Assembly: GCA_025449635.1 (NCBI GenBank)
Contig: JANWIZ010000036.1
Location: forward strand, 1-45,862
Source of the DNA: Patescibacteria group bacterium
Lineage (GTDB): Bacteria > Patescibacteriota > Microgenomatia > Woykebacterales > RBG-16-39-9b
DNA: 45,862 bases
Direction of reading: 5' to 3'
Shown here: in pieces, positions 19,229-30,008 of the stretch
Layout of the letters: the number at the start of each line of letters is the position of its first letter
How positions within the stretch are numbered: the first letter of the stretch is position 1
Program-made: the position numbers and the translations under genes
Notes under the pieces: generated by a model
The model's input: only the letters and a program-made list of their open reading frames with translations
Database searches by the model: none
What the model was told of the DNA's origin: nothing

Positions 19229-19284
19229 CCGAATAATTATTCACTATAACTAGATAATTTTTCTTTTTTTGAACCGCTTATAGG

Positions 19285-19313
19285 TTGACAAAATCCTCTT
19301 CTCGGAGTAATAT
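19285..19313 (+). promoter_or_regulatory. Consensus promoter of ncRNA-1
   Basis: TTGACA (19285-19290), exactly 17 bases, TAATAT (19308-19313). It is among the strongest sigma70-type promoters in the window, and no open reading frame with a ribosome-binding site follows. Confidence 0.75.
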
Positions 19314-19319
19314 GCTCGA

Positions 19320-19652
19320 GCACGTTTGATCTCGCAGGCAAATGATCAACACTAACAACTGGACGGGGAAGTCCTGCACAGGGAGAGATCGACATGACGT
19401 GTGACGCTGGCGGTGGAAGTGGCTGACCAACGCGGGTGAAGGGAAGTGAAAGCTTTCACCGCCAGCACCTTATGCCGGACTGCGAGGAAGCGCGCGAAGA
19501 GCGACTGAGACATTATCCCCCTCATGTTCTCGCAGCCCGGCACCAACTTGATAATTTCAATTGGGGAGGGGTGTTAGCGGTAGAAGACCAAAGTCATGGA
19601 AAACTGGGAAAGCTCATGACGATGGAGTACTCTTCTACCGCTTTATTTTTTT
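19320..19652 (+). ncRNA. Putative structured RNA 1, about 330 nt
   Basis: The 414 bases between the yfbR-like gene and dinB hold a transcription unit with a consensus promoter and a strong terminator but no credible protein. The sequence is clearly GC-richer than its flanks and full of long perfect pairings. GGAC/GTCC lies near 19361. A 10-bp helix GCTGGCGGTG (19406-19415) pairs with CACCGCCAGC (19457-19466). TGCCGG plus TGCGAG (19473-19486) pair with CTCGCA and CCGGCA (19529-19542). A 3' domain 19576-19642 contains a nested GTCATG/CATGAC hairpin. I see no tmRNA T-arm, no SRP GGAAGCAGC loop and no RNase P core. The family is unknown. A diverged housekeeping RNA (RNase P, tmRNA, 6S) is the main alternative. 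Confidence 0.65.
19576..19652 (+). terminator. Terminator of ncRNA-1
   Basis: A 12-bp perfect stem, AGCGGTAGAAGA (19576-19587) with TCTTCTACCGCT (19631-19642), is followed by a run of T. The T-run overlaps the end of the convergent dinB gene. Confidence 0.8.
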
Positions 19653-20821
19653 TCAAGCAGCATAAGAGACGCTGGAATTACAGCGCTTTTGCCAAAACGT
19701 GCTTTCAGTTGATCGATTCGTTTTTCCAAACCCAATCTTTTTTCCCGAACTTCGTCAAATAGTGACGGTTGCACTGTTTCTCCAAACTGAGTCAGGCCGA
19801 TGCCTACCAAACGCAGTGGGGTAGAGCTATCCCACAACTCTTTTAACAAGATTTCCCCAAGATCATAAATTTCCTTAGTGATGTTTGTCGGTGTTTCCAA
19901 AACCCGCTGTCGACTGACAAACCGAAAATCTTTATACCGAATTGTCACATGAACTGTCCGACCAAAATACCCATGTTCTCGAGCTTCTTGCCCAACACTT
20001 TCGGTAAGTTTTCGTAGCATCGCTAGGATGAAAGCCTCGTCCGGATTGTCTTTATAAAAAGTTTCACTACGAGAAATAGATTTCACCTCAACTCGAGGAC
20101 TAAACCAAACATTGTCCACACCATTGGCAGCTTCCCAAAGATTGATGGCAAACTTGCCCCAAGCTTTGATTTTTTCATAATCAACTCTTGCCAACTCTCC
20201 CAATGTTCTGACTCCAAGACGCTGAAAATACTCTTCCATCTTCCGTCCAATACCAGGTAAATCACGCAGCGGTAGGGGAGCGAGAAAAGCTTTTTCTGTT
20301 CCCACAGGCACGTAAGTAAAACCATCCGGCTTGCGGAAGTCACTAGCAACTTTGGCAGCCACTTTGGTCGCAGCCAAACCGATCGAAGCGGTAATACCAA
20401 TTTCATTTTTAATGTCAGAGCGAATTTTCTCAGCTACGATTTTTAAGTCTGGGTAAAGAATTTCAGTGTTAGAAAAATCCAAGAAGGCTTCGTCAATGCC
20501 AACTTGCTCAACTCTAGGTGCGTAACGAGCAGCAATCTCCATCACTGCCTCTGAAGCTTCGATATACTCCGCAAAGTGCCCTCCAACAACGACTGCAGAG
20601 GGACAAAGTCTCAAGGCTTGATAAACTGGCATTCCGCTTTTACAACCAAAAGCTCTGGCTTCATAAGAAGCAGTTGCGATCACACCTCGGGGAACATTTT
20701 TCCCTTGAGGATTGACTCCACCAACCAAAACTGGTTTACCTTTCAACGTTGGGTCAAGCTTGATTTCAACAGCTGCAAAAAAACAGTCCATATCCAAATG
20801 CATCCAAGAAGAACGTAACAT
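19643..20821 (-). CDS. dinB: DNA polymerase IV (Y-family, DinB)
   Basis: This is an error-prone translesion polymerase. The protein starts WMHLDMDCFFAAVE with the first catalytic Asp. It continues with G-K-P-V-L-V-G-G, YEARAFGCKSGMPVYQAL, EQVGIDEAFLDFS with the catalytic D-E pair, ASIGLAATKVAAKVASDFRK, and the helix-hairpin-helix LRDLPGIGRKMEEYFQRLG. A little-finger domain follows (S-R-S-E-T-F to L-R-L-V-G-I-G). Starting from the ATG at 20821 gives 392 residues. The frame upstream of that ATG is open but overlaps the promoter. The C-terminus ends in a Lys-rich tail without a recognisable clamp-binding motif beyond QPSLFDE (about 355-361), which fits the Q-x-x-L-F clamp motif. Confidence 0.96.
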   Translation of the reverse strand: MLRSSWMHLDMDCFFAAVEIKLDPTLKGKPVLVGGVNPQGKNVPRGVIATASYEARAFGCKSGMPVYQALRLCPSAVVVGGHFAEYIEASEAVMEIAARYAPRVEQVGIDEAFLDFSNTEILYPDLKIVAEKIRSDIKNEIGITASIGLAATKVAAKVASDFRKPDGFTYVPVGTEKAFLAPLPLRDLPGIGRKMEEYFQRLGVRTLGELARVDYEKIKAWGKFAINLWEAANGVDNVWFSPRVEVKSISRSETFYKDNPDEAFILAMLRKLTESVGQEAREHGYFGRTVHVTIRYKDFRFVSRQRVLETPTNITKEIYDLGEILLKELWDSSTPLRLVGIGLTQFGETVQPSLFDEVREKRLGLEKRIDQLKARFGKSAVIPASLMLLEKK

Positions 20822-20935: not shown

Positions 20936-21985
20936 CTAACTATAAACTCCAGCGACATTCACATGCCTGACGATCTGGTGTCGAAGCAAAGACTTGATCC
21001 GATTAACCAATCCATTGCTTTGTGGAATTCGCTGATCAAAACCAAAACTCTCCAGTACTATTTCACCGACAAATCCGTTCTGACGCAAGAAGGTCAGTAC
21101 TGACCGCAGAATCTTTGGATTCATACCAGCCAAAGAATCACCACGAGCAGCAGCAAGATCAAGCATCAACCGACCGGTTTTGTTGACATCATTGGTCAGT
21201 TCATGCATGTAGCGCACTAGATCCCGAACCCAAGCTCGGTAATCAGCTCCCATCATCTGCCCAAGTTCACCACCGCGATGAGCCAAATCCGGAGCGACTT
21301 GGTGCTCAGGCATCTCAAACTTTGCAGTTGCGATCGCTACCTGCTCCAAAAGTTCAGGATTGTACTGGACCTGAATGGCTGTAAAACGGTTATACCAAAC
21401 GGTGTGTAAAGTTTCTCGCTTTCTGACTCGTACGATTCGATCAGCTGCCACTGGCGAGCTCGCTCGTACAGTCTTTGCAACCACTCCATGATAACCGTCA
21501 GTGACTCGTTCTTGAATCGTACCAAACCAAGTAACCCCAATCGGCGTCAAAACTCCACGATGTTCAAACTCTCTAGCCAGATCTTCGCGGGCAATTCTGA
21601 TCAAATCAGAAGGGTAGTAACCTAGATCCACCAAACTATCGAAATAGGGAAGGTTGTGGGTTTTTTCGTCCGGACTCCACACCTCAGCATTAAATCGTCC
21701 AAGCCAACCAACCCCAAATAGATCCGCGACCATCTGAAACTGATGATCGTAAGTTTCAGTTGCTGCTTCGGTACGGTAACCTAGCATGAGAGCATCGCGA
21801 AAGTCCTCGATACCCATCCCTTCAGGGAGACTACGACCTACTGCCGAAACATCCAAACCTTCACCAATCTCTCTGGTCAAATCAGGATGAACAAATTCCC
21901 CAGGATCCTTCAGAATCGACAAACTGTAGTCCTCAAGAGCCTTAATACCAGCTTCAGGAACAAAATAGTCCATTTTGAGAACCAA
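20936..21985 (-). CDS. Ferritin-like diiron acyl-ACP desaturase family protein 1
   Basis: The 349-residue protein keeps the soluble acyl-ACP desaturase diiron pattern E...ExxH...E...ExxH. Candidate ligands are E73 (RTEAATE), E107 and H110 (WSPDEKTHNLPYF), E159 (IQERVT) and E191 with H194 (RETLHTVWY). The gaps of 34, 52 and 32 residues closely match the castor stearoyl-ACP desaturase (38, 53, 33), and QERxT is also shared. The substrate could be an acyl-ACP, but oxidation of another carrier-bound chain is possible. The TTG start is supported by AAAAAAGGAGG 6 bases upstream; an ATG four codons in is less well spaced. It is divergent from fabF with overlapping -10 boxes. Overall identity to known desaturases looks low, so the exact activity is uncertain. 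Confidence 0.75.
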   Translation of the reverse strand: MVLKMDYFVPEAGIKALEDYSLSILKDPGEFVHPDLTREIGEGLDVSAVGRSLPEGMGIEDFRDALMLGYRTEAATETYDHQFQMVADLFGVGWLGRFNAEVWSPDEKTHNLPYFDSLVDLGYYPSDLIRIAREDLAREFEHRGVLTPIGVTWFGTIQERVTDGYHGVVAKTVRASSPVAADRIVRVRKRETLHTVWYNRFTAIQVQYNPELLEQVAIATAKFEMPEHQVAPDLAHRGGELGQMMGADYRAWVRDLVRYMHELTNDVNKTGRLMLDLAAARGDSLAGMNPKILRSVLTFLRQNGFVGEIVLESFGFDQRIPQSNGLVNRIKSLLRHQIVRHVNVAGVYS

Positions 21986-22070: not shown

Positions 22071-23327
22071 ATGAGAGTCGTCATCACTGGAATGGGAGCG
22101 ATCACTCCTGTCGGCAAAACGCCAAAAGAGATCTTTTCCGCAGTTGTGAACAAAAAATCTGGGATTCGTGAGGTAAAATCGTTTCCGCTTGATGAAAATC
22201 ACCTTTGCCGTGTTGCTGGTGAGGTAGATTTTAATCCAAGCTGGTTGGATCGCTTGATTCATCGAAAGGATCAGCGAAAAATCGCTCGAGCCTCGCAATT
22301 TCAAATGTATGCGATCGATCAAGCACTTATTGACGCCAAACTTCTTTACAAACATTTGACTCCAAAGCTGGCTCAGCGTATTGGCATTTGCGTTGGTGCC
22401 AGTATGATCGGGATGTCAGATGTTATTTATGAGGTTGGTCGTTACCGAGATTCTGGTGCAAGATTTATTTCTGCGGCTTTGATCCAAAAAATCATGCCGA
22501 ATGCCGCTGCTGCTCGACCTTCACTACACAGTCAGATTCATGGTCCGGTCTATACGACATCAGCTGCTTGTGCAACAAGTGCAATGAGTATGATCGATGC
22601 TTATAAAATGATTACAGATTTGGAATGTGACGTTGTAGTAACTGGTGGTTGTGAAGATGCGCTTGATCCAATTTCTTTGGCTTCTTTTGGCAATTTGACA
22701 GCGCTTTCAACCAGCTGGAACGATCAACCGCATAAAGCACTTCGTCCGTTTGACTCAAAACGAAATGGTTTTGTACCAGGCGAGGGGGGAGTTGCTTTTG
22801 TTTTTGAAGGTTTGGATCACGCTCTAGCCAGAAAGGCAAATATTTACGCAGAAGTCGTTGGCTACTGTCGCAATTCCGATGCTCACAACATCGTTCACCC
22901 GCACCCTGAAGGGACTTGGCAAGCACTATGCATGTCAACCGCTCTGGAAAGGGCAGGGGTAACACCGTCAAATCTGAGCTATATCAATGCTCACGGAACA
23001 GGTACTCCGGAAGGAGACCCGTCTGAGTGCCGGGCAATCGCTACTTGTCTTGGTAAAGATGTGAAAAAAGTTCCAGTTTCTTCCAGCAAAGGTGTTCTCA
23101 GCCATTTGATGAGTGCCTCAGCTGCAGCTGAACTGTTAATTTGTGTCGAAGCGATAATGCAAAATATTATCCCTCCAACTACCAATCTAGAAGTTATTGA
23201 CGCTGAATGCACTGATCTTCACCATGTCACCAAAGCTTTCAGATCTGAAGTGACTGCAGTGATGAATAATTCGTTTGGATTTGGTGGGGAAAATACTGCC
23301 ATGGTTGTGAAAAAATTTACAGAATAA
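22071..23327 (+). CDS. Beta-ketoacyl-ACP synthase II (FabF-type ketosynthase)
   Basis: This thiolase-fold condensing enzyme extends an acyl-ACP with malonyl-ACP. It starts RVVITGMGAITPVG like FabF. The catalytic Cys167 lies in TTSAACATSAMS, His308 in NAHGTGTPEGDPSE, Lys340 in SSSKGVLSH and His345 in the same block. Their spacing is the same as in E. coli FabF (163, 303, 335, 340). The C-terminal NNSFGFGGENTAMVV glycine loop is present. The length of 418 residues is normal. GGAGG lies 4 bases before the ATG. No acyl carrier protein, FabD, FabG, FabZ or FabI is in the window. Together with the flanking desaturase-like genes it suggests modification of carrier-bound acyl chains, or a polyketide-like product. 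Confidence 0.93.
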   Translation: MRVVITGMGAITPVGKTPKEIFSAVVNKKSGIREVKSFPLDENHLCRVAGEVDFNPSWLDRLIHRKDQRKIARASQFQMYAIDQALIDAKLLYKHLTPKLAQRIGICVGASMIGMSDVIYEVGRYRDSGARFISAALIQKIMPNAAAARPSLHSQIHGPVYTTSAACATSAMSMIDAYKMITDLECDVVVTGGCEDALDPISLASFGNLTALSTSWNDQPHKALRPFDSKRNGFVPGEGGVAFVFEGLDHALARKANIYAEVVGYCRNSDAHNIVHPHPEGTWQALCMSTALERAGVTPSNLSYINAHGTGTPEGDPSECRAIATCLGKDVKKVPVSSSKGVLSHLMSASAAAELLICVEAIMQNIIPPTTNLEVIDAECTDLHHVTKAFRSEVTAVMNNSFGFGGENTAMVVKKFTE

Positions 23328-23334
23328 ATCTGTT

Positions 23335-23378
23335 AAAAGCCCGTTGGGATATCAATCCAATCAATGGGCTTTTTTTAT
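23335..23378 (+). terminator. Terminator of the fabF-like gene
   Basis: AAAAGCCC pairs with GGGCTTTT, and an inner TTGG/CCAA extends the stem. A run of seven T follows. Confidence 0.85.
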
Positions 23379-23442
23379 TACTTTTATAACTATTATGAGT
23401 CAACCTATTGCTTTTTTAATTCCTTTAGTAAATAATTTTTAT

Positions 23443-23728
23443 GTAATCCTGTGTGAAAGAGCGTGAAGAAAGGAGACCGCGCACTTTTCCGATATATAAA
23501 GGCGGCCAGACTCCATCATGACCCCCTCTAGTATCGTGATTCGCACAAAACAGAGCAGAGCTGGACAACACGGGCGCACATTCCCAACCGGATTTTGCCG
23601 CCCACACAGGATTGCACGACAACCAGAGCCCGGAGATAGACTGTCGATCCGCCGACAGGTGAAAACGCCGCACCCCCCGCAGATTTTTCACGAGAGTAAC
23701 GAGAGGAGCACTCTTTACTCTTTTTCTA
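23443..23728 (+). ncRNA. Putative structured RNA 2, about 285 nt
   Basis: The 485-base gap between fabF and desaturase 2 contains a compact, GC-rich structured block. ATCCTGTGTG (23446-23455) pairs perfectly with CACACAGGAT (23603-23612). Stacked directly inside, GGCGGC (23501-23506) pairs with GCCGCC (23597-23602). Further hairpins are AAAG-GCGTG/CGCGC-CTTT (from 23456), ATCATGA/TCGTGAT (23515-23540), CTGTCG/CGACAG (23641-23658) and GTGAAAA/TTTTCAC. A plus-strand terminator ends it at 23693-23728. The promoter is only weakly visible (TTGCTT at 23408, 17 bases, AATAAT). Open frames across it lack ribosome-binding sites. The family is not recognised; an alternative is a long structured leader or trailer, but no gene follows in the same direction. 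Confidence 0.55.
23693..23728 (+). terminator. Terminator of ncRNA-2
   Basis: AGAGTAA (23693-23699) pairs with TTACTCT (23715-23721), with a nested GAG/CTC, followed by TTTTTCTATTTT. Confidence 0.65.
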
Positions 23729-23744
23729 TTTTCGGGCAACTTTT

Positions 23745-23786
23745 TTGAATAAAAAAACCGCCCTAGTAGAGAAAACTAACGCGGTT
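23745..23786 (-). terminator. Terminator of acyl-ACP desaturase gene 2
   Basis: On the minus strand a 12-position stem, AACCGCGTTAGT with ACTAGGGCGGTT (one mismatch and one G-T pair), is followed by TTTTTTATTC, 26 bases past the stop codon. Confidence 0.8.
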
Positions 23787-23812
23787 AAAACTTACCTCTC
23801 TAAAAACTTCAA

Positions 23813-24805
23813 TTAAGCAGCAACCAACTGGAAACTACCATCCGAAACCAACTGATAAACCTCAGCTCCTTCAGGTATTCCCTCCAAAGGCTTATTGGGT
23901 AGAACAACAACGGCATTCTCGGGAAGCTCTTGAACTGCAACTTCAGCTGCTCTGACCGCATTGCGATCTTTCAAACCCATACTCTGGATTGCTGGGCTAA
24001 GAACACTTCTACCCCAATCCATCAACGAGAAAACACCCGCCGAATAAACCGTTGCCTCGAATTGCTCCTTGTTGGGAAACCTAACTTCTGGCATACGATA
24101 CGTGGCGAAAGCCTGATTCATCGCTTCAATTGCAAGATCAGGTCGGTATCGTAGGTAAATGCGAAGAATTTCTCGAAAATTACTTTCGTGAGCACCTTCG
24201 TCACGTTCCACATACCAAACCATCATACTCAACACCAAAAGCAGAGGGTTTTTGGTTCTTTCATACTCTGCTTTGAGGAATTGGCGAAAGCGGTGATAGT
24301 TATGCTTGGTCTGACGCTCTTGGACAATACCATAAGCCGAAGCGTTATAAGGTGTCGCTGCGTGTCCGGTTTGGCGCTCAAACACCCACGTATCCTCAGA
24401 AGCCTCTTCCAAGAATTTGTCTACCTCTGCCTGTGTTGCCAATCCAGAGTCAACCAAACTATAACGAAAGGTCTGACCGTGCTTACGCTCTTCGACACCC
24501 CAACCAATTGTCGCTTCACGAATCGTAATACTGTCACCAGCACCTTGAATACCAGCGAAAACATAATCGTCAACAAACGACTCAACCCCAAGAAACCCAA
24601 AAAGCATTTCCCGAATTTCTGAAATAAGCTGAGCCGCTACTTCACGATACCGACGAAGTTCATCTCGCTCTTTAAGACGCTTCGGAAACCATGCACGAGC
24701 CACTACCGCTTTAGCAAAATAGGTATCGTATTGAGTACGAATAGCCTTCTGAATCGCGGTCTCTTTACCAACCAAAGTAATCGGATCGGTATTGAGATAA
24801 ACCAA
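23813..24805 (-). CDS. Ferritin-like diiron acyl-ACP desaturase family protein 2
   Basis: The 330-residue protein matches the FA_desaturase_2 layout more closely than its neighbour. It has GWGVEERKHGQTFRY (E106 and H109), YGIVQERQTKHNYHRF (E163, QERxT motif) and YVERDEGAHESNFREIL (E203 and H206). The first ligand is probably E75. These correspond to the EENRHG and DEKRHE boxes of plant stearoyl-ACP desaturases. A C-terminal tail of about 45 residues (P-E-N-A-V-V-V-L-P-N onward) is extra. The TTG start has AAAAGGAGGG 7 bases upstream. The gene follows a thermonuclease gene by 81 bases but has its own extended -10. It probably acts with the ketosynthase and desaturase 1 on acyl-ACP. Regiochemistry cannot be inferred. 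Confidence 0.82.
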   Translation of the reverse strand: MVYLNTDPITLVGKETAIQKAIRTQYDTYFAKAVVARAWFPKRLKERDELRRYREVAAQLISEIREMLFGFLGVESFVDDYVFAGIQGAGDSITIREATIGWGVEERKHGQTFRYSLVDSGLATQAEVDKFLEEASEDTWVFERQTGHAATPYNASAYGIVQERQTKHNYHRFRQFLKAEYERTKNPLLLVLSMMVWYVERDEGAHESNFREILRIYLRYRPDLAIEAMNQAFATYRMPEVRFPNKEQFEATVYSAGVFSLMDWGRSVLSPAIQSMGLKDRNAVRAAEVAVQELPENAVVVLPNKPLEGIPEGAEVYQLVSDGSFQLVAA

Positions 24806-27246: not shown

Positions 27247-28221
27247 ATGAAAATTTTTGATAGTGTTTACGGTGAATTTGAAGTTAAGGAACCAGTTCTT
27301 GTTGAACTAATAAATTCTAAACCACTCCAGCGAATCAAGGGCGTTAACCAAGCTGGTACCCAACTAGTTCAAATTGAAAAAACTACAACCCGATACGATC
27401 ACTGTACTGGAGTAATGATCTTACTTGCCAAATTTGGGGCAAGTTTGGAAGAACAAATTGCAGGATTGTTACACGACGTACCACACACTGCCTTTTCCCA
27501 CGCAGCAGATTTTGTTTTTAAAGAAAATGAAAGTCAAACCTATCACGAAAGGTTTTTAAAGCAAATTGTTTTTGATTCAGAGATTCCAGCAATTCTAGAA
27601 AAATACGGTTTTGACCCTGAAAGAGTAACTGATGAACACAATTTTACCCTTCTAGAACAAGATATTCCCCAGCTGTGTGCTGATCGTATTGATTACTCAC
27701 TCCGGGATATAGCTACGGATAAGATTTTTTCCGAAAATGATATTAAACATATTCTTGATTCAATTACTGTCTTCGAAGGTAAATTTGCGATGAACGATAA
27801 AAAAATAGGCTATTTTTATGCCAAAGCTTTTATGAATCAGTGTCTTAACTCCTGGAACGCGCCAGTCACTCTGACAGCCTTTGAGCTTTTCGGACAACTT
27901 GTCCGTCAAGCAATAAAAATTAAAGTTTTGACTGAGCAAGACTTGTTCCAGACTGATGATGAGGTTCTGGAAAAATTGAAAACTTCAGAAAATAAAGAGG
28001 TTAAGAATTTACTCTCTAAACTGAATCCAAATCTTTCTGTGGTTCACGATGAAATAAATTTTGACTTTGACACTAGAGGGAAGGTGCGCTACATCGATCC
28101 CCCAATACTAAAAAACAAAATTGTCACACCTCTTTCCAAACTAAATCCCGCCTTTGAGCGGGATATAGTTACCTTTATTCAGTTAGCCAAGGCTGGCCAT
28201 AAAATTCGAGTTATTTCCTAG
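27247..28221 (+). CDS. HD-domain phosphohydrolase (dGTPase/SAMHD1-like)
   Basis: The metal site is complete: TRYDHCTGVM (His), GLLHDVPHTAFSHAAD (His-Asp pair and following His), and CADRIDYSLRDI (Asp). The N-terminal IFDSVYGEFEVKEPVLVELI and LQRIKGVNQAG resemble the start of dGTPase/SAMHD1-like HD proteins (here 324 residues). It probably hydrolyses a nucleotide; dNTP triphosphohydrolase activity is one possibility. It is co-transcribed with the DUF192 gene and overlaps the end of the convergent LPXTG gene by 11 bases. A CCCGC/GCGGG inverted repeat near 28146-28163 lies inside its last codons. Confidence 0.85.
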   Translation: MKIFDSVYGEFEVKEPVLVELINSKPLQRIKGVNQAGTQLVQIEKTTTRYDHCTGVMILLAKFGASLEEQIAGLLHDVPHTAFSHAADFVFKENESQTYHERFLKQIVFDSEIPAILEKYGFDPERVTDEHNFTLLEQDIPQLCADRIDYSLRDIATDKIFSENDIKHILDSITVFEGKFAMNDKKIGYFYAKAFMNQCLNSWNAPVTLTAFELFGQLVRQAIKIKVLTEQDLFQTDDEVLEKLKTSENKEVKNLLSKLNPNLSVVHDEINFDFDTRGKVRYIDPPILKNKIVTPLSKLNPAFERDIVTFIQLAKAGHKIRVIS

Positions 28222-28879
28222 ATACTGCTTGAAAGGCATATTTATTAACTGTATTCACTACTATCCCAATCAAAACCAACGCCAAAGCTAGAGCTAGATT
28301 CCCGATCAAACCAAGATAAGAATCGTTCCCGGTTTGTGGAAGCTTAGTTACCGAAGATAACACAGTTGGAGTTACTACAGTTGTAGTAGCTGCAACAACA
28401 GTGGGGGTACCACTTGGTTGATTTCTGGTAGGCTCGACTATTGGCTTATTTACATTTGGTTTACAATCGTTTTCCACTGGTTTATTTACAACTTTCTTTG
28501 GTTTGTGACCGCACCAACCTTCGTTGTCATCTTCAAAGTCATCGTCATTGCCACAACCATTGTTACCATCTTGATCGGCTTTATCGACACCACCAGTACT
28601 TCCCGGTTTGTCAGATTTACCGTAGTTTCGCTCTGGTCCTTTAGAGTTGTTATCTGGATCAGATTTAGATTTACCTTGAGTGAAAGAGAGTCCTTTTTCA
28701 ATACTGCGATCTTTTCCAGATGGGTGAGAGTTGTCACCTTCATCAGGCTTGTCGTAAACTATTGAGGACTTTATTGGTTTGGAATGCGAATAGTTACCGT
28801 AAGAGGCAAAAGCCACCTTTGGCAATAAAGCTAAATTAAAAAGAAGTATTAACCCTATAATAACAGTTTTCTTAATCAT
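28211..28879 (-). CDS. LPXTG-type cell-wall-anchored surface protein
   Basis: From the ATG at 28879 the protein has a signal peptide (IKKTVIIGLILLFNLALLPK, cleavage near AFASYG). A low-complexity, Asp/Asn/Gly/Lys-rich region of about 110 residues follows, including a CGNDDDFEDDNEGWCG loop. Next comes a Pro/Thr/Val-rich stalk, then the sorting signal LPQTG with a following hydrophobic helix and a basic tail (AVSRK). Sortase would link it to peptidoglycan; no sortase gene is in the window. The acidic loop could bind calcium or another cation (inference). The upstream TTG extension overlaps the promoter and is rejected. Its presence indicates a monoderm-type cell surface. Confidence 0.88.
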   Translation of the reverse strand: MIKKTVIIGLILLFNLALLPKVAFASYGNYSHSKPIKSSIVYDKPDEGDNSHPSGKDRSIEKGLSFTQGKSKSDPDNNSKGPERNYGKSDKPGSTGGVDKADQDGNNGCGNDDDFEDDNEGWCGHKPKKVVNKPVENDCKPNVNKPIVEPTRNQPSGTPTVVAATTTVVTPTVLSSVTKLPQTGNDSYLGLIGNLALALALVLIGIVVNTVNKYAFQAVSRK

Positions 28880-28921: not shown

Positions 28922-28950
28922 TTGACTCTTGCATAATCTTAGGGTAAAAT
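28922..28950 (+). promoter_or_regulatory. Promoter of ncRNA-3
   Basis: TTGACT (28922-28927), 17 bases, TAAAAT (28945-28950). It lies back to back with the LPXTG gene promoter. Confidence 0.7.
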
Positions 28951-28956
28951 GCTTTT

Positions 28957-29265
28957 CAGCTCAATTACCTTCGGGAGATTTTGAGATAGGCTCTTGGGCC
29001 TGCGAGAAAGGAAGATAATTGAGTTAGGGAAGACTCTGGTGTGGATGCCACAGAGAATAAAACTAGGAGTGAGACCTAGTCGGGGTTTGCCTTGATCCCC
29101 GTTAGAGCTTTCGTTCTCCAAGGACAGTGACTCATCTTTTGTGAAATAATGAGGAGATGAGTGGAGTATGTAAATCACACATACTTTGAGTCTGTTCTGC
29201 CAAAAACTTGCACGAAAAAGGGCTATCCCAACTCTGCAAGTCGTGTGTCTTCCCGAATTTTTTTT
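28957..29265 (+). ncRNA. Putative structured RNA 3, about 310 nt
   Basis: The 481-base gap before the membrane protein gene holds a promoter-driven block of successive hairpins. CTCAATTA plus CTTC (28960-28972) pair with GAAG plus TAATTGAG (29011-29023). CTCTG/CAGAG lies near 29034. ACTAGG (29062) pairs with CCTAGT (29075), and CGGGG (29081) with CCCCG (29097). ACTCATCT (29130) pairs with AGATGAGT (29155) inside GGACAG/CTGTTC. AGTATGT (29165) pairs with ACATACT (29179), and ACTTGCA (29206) with TGCAAGT (29235). TTCGGGA near the 5' end can pair with TCCCGAA just before eight T, which would close and end the RNA. A GCCACAGAGAATAAA stretch recalls part of RNase P RNA, but the P4 core is not evident. 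The remaining 95 bases to the next gene carry only its promoter and ribosome-binding site. Confidence 0.62.
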
Positions 29266-29360
29266 AAATCGTAGCAACCTCAAATTTTCGTATTTAAATA
29301 TAAGCTCCCTAGGTATATACTCAAACTACTATATAGAGAGATCAGGAAAGGAGGTTTTCC

Positions 29361-29954
29361 GTGTTCCCAGAAAGCGGGCTGGGTTTTGACTTTCTGGTAA
29401 ATCAACCGATTTACTTGCGGGGTAGAAGAATTGTTGGTCCTTTAGTCAACAGTTACTGGCCCGCAACTTTCGTGCACATGGAGTCAAGATTTTCGAAGTA
29501 TTTTCTTTTGCTTCCTTTGGCAGCTTTTTTGGGAATCGAATGGGCGATTGGGATCATGCTTGTTTATGGTATGGGCTACACTTTGTTTTATGAGTGGCTT
29601 AGCTCTCGTGGCAGAATCCCAGAACCAATGGAGACAAACAATCCCGCCAAAGGGTTTATGGTTGGTCTCCAGCAGTGGGGTTACTCAAAAGTAGTGAAGC
29701 GGTTGGGTCCAGGAAGTTCGAACCTCGTCAAAATACCGACAATTGCTTTTGGAGCCTTAACTTGTGGTGGTGTGGTCGCTGTGCACTACTATATAAAAGC
29801 TGCGGGTTATTCAGGAATTGGGGCGGTAGTTGGTAATATGGCTTGCAGACTTGCTGCCATTCCGGAAAAGTTTCTGTATCTTAGTGGTCTGTCAATTGCA
29901 ATCGGTCTGGTCAAACCACAAGCTTTGCAAATACTGAGCGAGATCTTCAGATGA
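29361..29954 (+). CDS. Unknown multi-pass membrane protein
   Basis: I do not recognise this 197-residue protein. The GTG start follows AAAGGAGG by 6 bases. The first 45 residues are soluble with aromatic and Gly residues. Hydrophobic segments lie at about 46-72, 126-146, 150-165 and 173-187, with a basic loop (SKVVKRLGPGSSN) between, so three to five membrane helices are likely. No catalytic motif is visible. The leader carries AGATCAGGAAAGGAGG (29339-29354), nearly identical to the leaders of both desaturase-like genes. This suggests a shared regulator or origin and perhaps a membrane-lipid-related role (inference). It ends in a strong terminator and so is a single-gene unit. Confidence 0.65.
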   Translation: MFPESGLGFDFLVNQPIYLRGRRIVGPLVNSYWPATFVHMESRFSKYFLLLPLAAFLGIEWAIGIMLVYGMGYTLFYEWLSSRGRIPEPMETNNPAKGFMVGLQQWGYSKVVKRLGPGSSNLVKIPTIAFGALTCGGVVAVHYYIKAAGYSGIGAVVGNMACRLAAIPEKFLYLSGLSIAIGLVKPQALQILSEIFR

Positions 29955-30008
29955 CAAGGTGTCTTTTTGCTGCAAAGGCAACGAAGACCCCTTGTCTTAT
30001 TTTTTTTC
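29953..30008 (+). terminator. Terminator of the 29361 membrane protein gene
   Basis: GACAAGG (29953-29959) pairs with CCTTGTC (29990-29996), extended by GTCTT/AAGAC and TTGC/GCAA. TTATTTTTTTT follows. Confidence 0.85.

Follow-up and report, generated by a model that had tools for sequence, protein, structure and literature searches.

Long intergenic regions rich in G+C are a signature by which structured RNAs are found in bacteria (PMC8723152). The large structured noncoding RNA classes known from bacteria rest on covariation among many homologues (PMC2864571, PMC6429828, PMC8723152), whereas the RNA described here is represented by one sequence. It lies on contig C36 of a draft genome of 760 kb that is 83% complete; the whole stretch of this contig that was analysed, 45,862 nucleotides, is referred to as the window. 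A 445-nt intergenic gap separates a leftward gene for an LPQTG protein from a rightward gene for a membrane protein of 197 aa, and its G+C content is 0.41 vs 0.24-0.36 in the short gaps. We consider positions 28957-29265 of this gap to be, with a probability of roughly 0.6, a free-standing, lineage-restricted gene for a noncoding RNA, as judged from the DNA sequence. The features of the locus are:

28211-28879, minus strand: gene in divergent orientation for a secreted protein that bears an LPQTG sorting signal; the ATG start is near 28879 (from translation and coding score)
28922-28950, plus strand: sigma-70-like promoter of the RNA, TTGACT-17-TAAAAT, 10 of 12 consensus matches
28957-29265, plus strand: predicted transcribed structured RNA of about 305 nt, present once in the genome (from fold, noncoding character and copy number)
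28958-29025, plus strand: 5' hairpin domain, AGCUCAAUUA/UAAUUGAGUU (10 bp) with CUUC/GAAG and an inner stem (pair probabilities 0.97-0.98)
28970-28976, plus strand: UUCGGGA, 5' half of an alternative long-range pairing with 29251-29257 (forced structure 8.1 kcal/mol less stable)
29027-29254, plus strand: multibranched 3' domain with closing helix GGGAAGAC/GUCUUCCC (probability of this helix 0.99)
29247-29265, plus strand: terminator-like 3' end, GUCUUCCC, GAA and then U8 (from sequence; upstream half of the stem about 220 nt away)
29293-29321, plus strand: possible separate promoter of the membrane-protein gene, TTTAAA-17-TATACT (9 of 12, weak)
29361-29954, plus strand: downstream membrane-protein gene, 197 aa, function unassigned, own T8 at 30000

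The promoter proposed in the initial annotation was confirmed, with TTGACT at 28922-28927 and TAAAAT at 28945-28950 separated by a 17-nt spacer. It stands back to back with a minus-strand promoter, TTGACA-17-TAGAAT (11 of 12), which serves the divergent surface-protein gene. About 300 nt downstream of the plus-strand promoter lies a T8 run (29258-29265), one of only six on the plus strand in 46 kb. This U8 follows a long-range 8-bp stem and has no canonical local hairpin, and the 29247-29265 end was not listed by a terminator scan for local hairpins. An exact 8-bp partner at most 280 nt upstream is expected for only about 0.4% of GC-containing 8-mers. According to the proposed model, transcription would start near 28957, proceed for about 305 nt and stop at the T8 run.

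The minimum-energy fold of the plus strand of 28957-29265 has an energy of -100.4 kcal/mol, corresponding to z values of -2.8 to -3.4, with one or two of 100-300 shuffled sequences folding equally well; the background, calculated for 309-nt windows across the 46-kb contig, has a mean z of -0.3 and an sd of 1.3-1.4. The z of the minus strand is lower still (-4.1 to -4.5), hence the fold does not decide the strand, and the orientation rests on the promoter and the T8 run. At least eight consecutive hairpins had been claimed previously; the minimum-energy fold shows seven or more. The RNA is predicted to fold into the 5' hairpin domain and the 3' multibranched domain, whose 8-bp closing helix (GGGAAGAC at 29027-29034, GUCUUCCC at 29247-29254) would end three nucleotides before the T8 run. 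The inner helices of the 3' domain comprise 29040-29052, 29081-29101, 29121-29198 (two arms) and 29206-29241, with probabilities of 0.90-0.97. The complementarity between UUCGGGA near the 5' end and UCCCGAA before the T8 run, noticed earlier, is real (28970-28976 with 29251-29257, 7 bp), but it is not the favoured closure. The two pairings compete for a common CCC, and forcing UUCGGGA/UCCCGAA yields -92.3 vs -100.4 kcal/mol. Since most bases are paired in the predicted fold, a compact structural or protein-binding role would be more likely than that of a long antisense sRNA.

To search for relatives, we built a covariance model from the single 309-nt sequence. Among the genome itself, 126 genomes of relatives, 374 of the class and 380 of the phylum (overlapping sets), the model found only the sequence from which it was made. 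Weak matches, of 16.4 bits in L051 and of 17.6 bits in G599, covered less than 100 nt of the 309-nt model and were not significant over the number of genomes searched. A blastn search against 137 genomes returned only scattered, short matches (50 nt or less); the strongest, of 34 nt with an E of 7.5e-4 per genome, is unremarkable for this number of genomes. As a control, the RNase P RNA of the same genome was found by blastn in six out of six other genomes of the family and three out of three of the sister family. An RNA with the conservation of RNase P would thus have been detected, whereas a fast-evolving one could have escaped. A mobile element was rejected, as the RNA is single copy and no similar DNA was present in phage or plasmid collections. 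In the viral contigs, a 19-base pattern taken from the RNA was absent, and so were relatives of the neighbouring protein. Among loci encoding relatives of the HD-domain protein (27247-28221) in Bacilli and DPANN archaea, 49 were without a match to the model. The nearest relatives of this protein, 38-48% identical, occur in Patescibacteria, nanohaloarchaea, other DPANN archaea and Bacilli, and such a scattered distribution suggests frequent transfer.

As a prediction from one sequence, the structured-RNA call stands. We infer transcription from the plus strand, independence from the downstream gene and action in trans. Against a free-standing gene speak the lack of a homologue in these searches, the moderate z, the equal or better fold of the opposite strand and the long-range nature of the terminal stem.

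The best surviving alternative, which we nevertheless regard as unlikely, is that the RNA is a long 5' leader (a riboswitch or attenuator) of the membrane-protein gene 29361-29954. The helix adjacent to U8 would then stop transcription, and a signal would shift the pairings that compete with it (UUCGGGA/UCCCGAA or those of the 5' hairpin). The arrangement is compatible with such a leader, as the start codon lies on the same strand, 95 nt beyond the end of the RNA, and the two pairings are mutually exclusive owing to the common CCC of the 3' strand. However, a stem precedes the U tract in either case, and the two pairings therefore do not constitute clean terminator and antiterminator alternatives. 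The possible TTTAAA-17-TATACT promoter, moreover, lies after the T8 run, and the membrane gene appears to carry a terminator of its own and perhaps also a promoter. The location of the RNA upstream of an unknown membrane protein, as described in the initial annotation, was correct: the 197-aa product has no Pfam match, and a gene-based search retrieved a sole homologue, 31% identical, in G003, with no further relatives among genome contigs or viral contigs. No similar leader precedes this homologue; the alignment of its upstream region was no better than that of shuffled sequences (108/500), and the covariance model did not match there. Conservation of a leader position was thus not observed at this single homologue, which is one comparison and therefore weak. 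Finally, the locus has no Rfam riboswitch match.

Less probable still is that the gap has no function, its hairpins having arisen by chance in a decayed gene or in intergenic filler, or that the relevant product is made from the opposite strand. The lack of detectable conservation fits this explanation, and so do the lower z of the minus strand and an open antisense frame of 114 codons. That frame, the only long one in the gap, nevertheless scores as non-coding (-0.25 bits per codon vs +0.05 to +0.30 for genes), with no ribosome-binding site visible in its sequence. Coding signal was absent from either strand of the 445-nt gap, where every frame scores negative. Furthermore, the promoter and T8 bracket the fold on the plus strand, and reduced genomes usually keep short spacers.

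We also considered whether the locus belongs to a known class. The earlier hint at RNase P originates from GCCACAGAGAATAAA, which resembles the conserved P10/P11-P12 stretch of RNase P (the ACAGA region). This hint was refuted, while the accompanying remark that the P4 core is not visible proved right: the best matches to the P4 strands GAGGAAAGTCC and ACAGAAYCYGGCTTA in the RNA have four and six mismatches, respectively, as in shuffled sequences. Class A RNase P RNA was rejected, as the P4 core GAGGAAAGUC...ACAGAAYCYGGCUUA is absent from the locus. The RNase P RNA of the genome, for which it had been proposed to look elsewhere, does exist on another contig (G000:C39:9266-9642, equivalent to L032 1501-1877), with 84.7 bits, E of about 1e-26 and intact P4 motifs GAGGAAAGTCC and ACAGAATCTGGCTTA. 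Its score is below the Rfam gathering score of 100, which agrees with the description of diverged RNase P RNAs from other CPR (PMC8172020); annotation at the default threshold would miss the gene. The Rfam 15 covariance models had no match in the window at gathering thresholds. On the locus itself, searched with permissive filters, they had none up to E = 5, RNase P and riboswitches included. Cobalamin-type and other Rfam classes were rejected on this basis. The tmRNA class was likewise rejected, because ARAGORN reported nothing, RF00023 was unmatched, there is no tRNA-like end and the gap has no GTTCRANYC T-arm. Although GCCACAGAGAATAAA is a short motif likeness and the 83%-complete genome has no tmRNA above the cut-off elsewhere, the idea that the locus is an RNase P RNA, a tmRNA, or a cobalamin or other riboswitch too diverged for Rfam is very improbable.

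Three RNAs of this kind within 10 kb had also been noted earlier. The gaps 19229-19642 and 23328-23812 are indeed strongly structured and Rfam-negative, and they contain the following candidates:

19285-19655, plus strand: second RNA candidate, about 335 nt, promoter TTGACA-17-TAATAT (10 of 12), T8 at 19646
23443-23748, plus strand: third RNA candidate, two multibranched domains with long closing helices (z -6.4), the second directly before T6

The former ends in a stem, AGCGGUAGAAGA/UCUUCUACCGCU, followed by UUAU8; it is Rfam-negative and has no homologue in 233 relatives. The latter has no clear plus-strand promoter, is also Rfam-negative and has no significant homologue in the 233 relatives. 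Paralogy of the three RNAs was rejected, as blastn and an unfiltered covariance search were negative. When about one third of the genome was sampled, other long gaps with z < -4 were found, some of them bearing tRNAs or repeats; therefore, the cluster is notable but not unique. It is possible, albeit doubtful, that three unrelated, unclassified structured RNAs of about 300-345 nt form a local group in this lineage and that each of them represents a new class found only in the genus; as part of the same tentative reading, a genome this small would not be expected to keep RNA genes at 19.3-19.65, 23.44-23.75 and 28.96-29.27 kb. A beta-ketoacyl synthase gene (22071-23327) is flanked by fatty-acid-desaturase-like genes (20936-21985 and 23813-24805), content that is unusual for a Patescibacteria genome of reduced size. 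Contigs of low coding density in the draft genome contain near-palindromic elements of about 200 nt (L132 5676-5987 and 6342-6686; L142 6014-6330; two similar copies), and these contigs may be foreign to the organism.

If the free-standing RNA gene at 28957-29265 is transcribed, a reduced Patescibacteria genome would keep a large structured RNA that has no relative in its own family. This would suggest that fast-evolving or newly born structured RNAs exist in a group in which noncoding RNAs have received little study.

Compared with known systems, the RNA is similar to class A RNase P RNA (RF00010) in length and in the GCCACAGAGAATAAA stretch, and differs in that the P4 strands are absent. It is like tmRNA (RF00023) in its length and in being a single-copy, probably stand-alone gene, but has no tRNA-like acceptor or T-arm. 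With intrinsic-attenuator leaders and riboswitches it shares the order of promoter, folded RNA, U tract and gene on one strand; unlike in these systems, the gene here appears to have its own terminator and has a possible promoter of its own, and the G003 homologue has no matching leader. The large structured bacterial noncoding RNAs are alike in having no coding frame, in occupying a long intergenic region and in their multibranched fold (PMC2864571, PMC6429828, PMC8723152).
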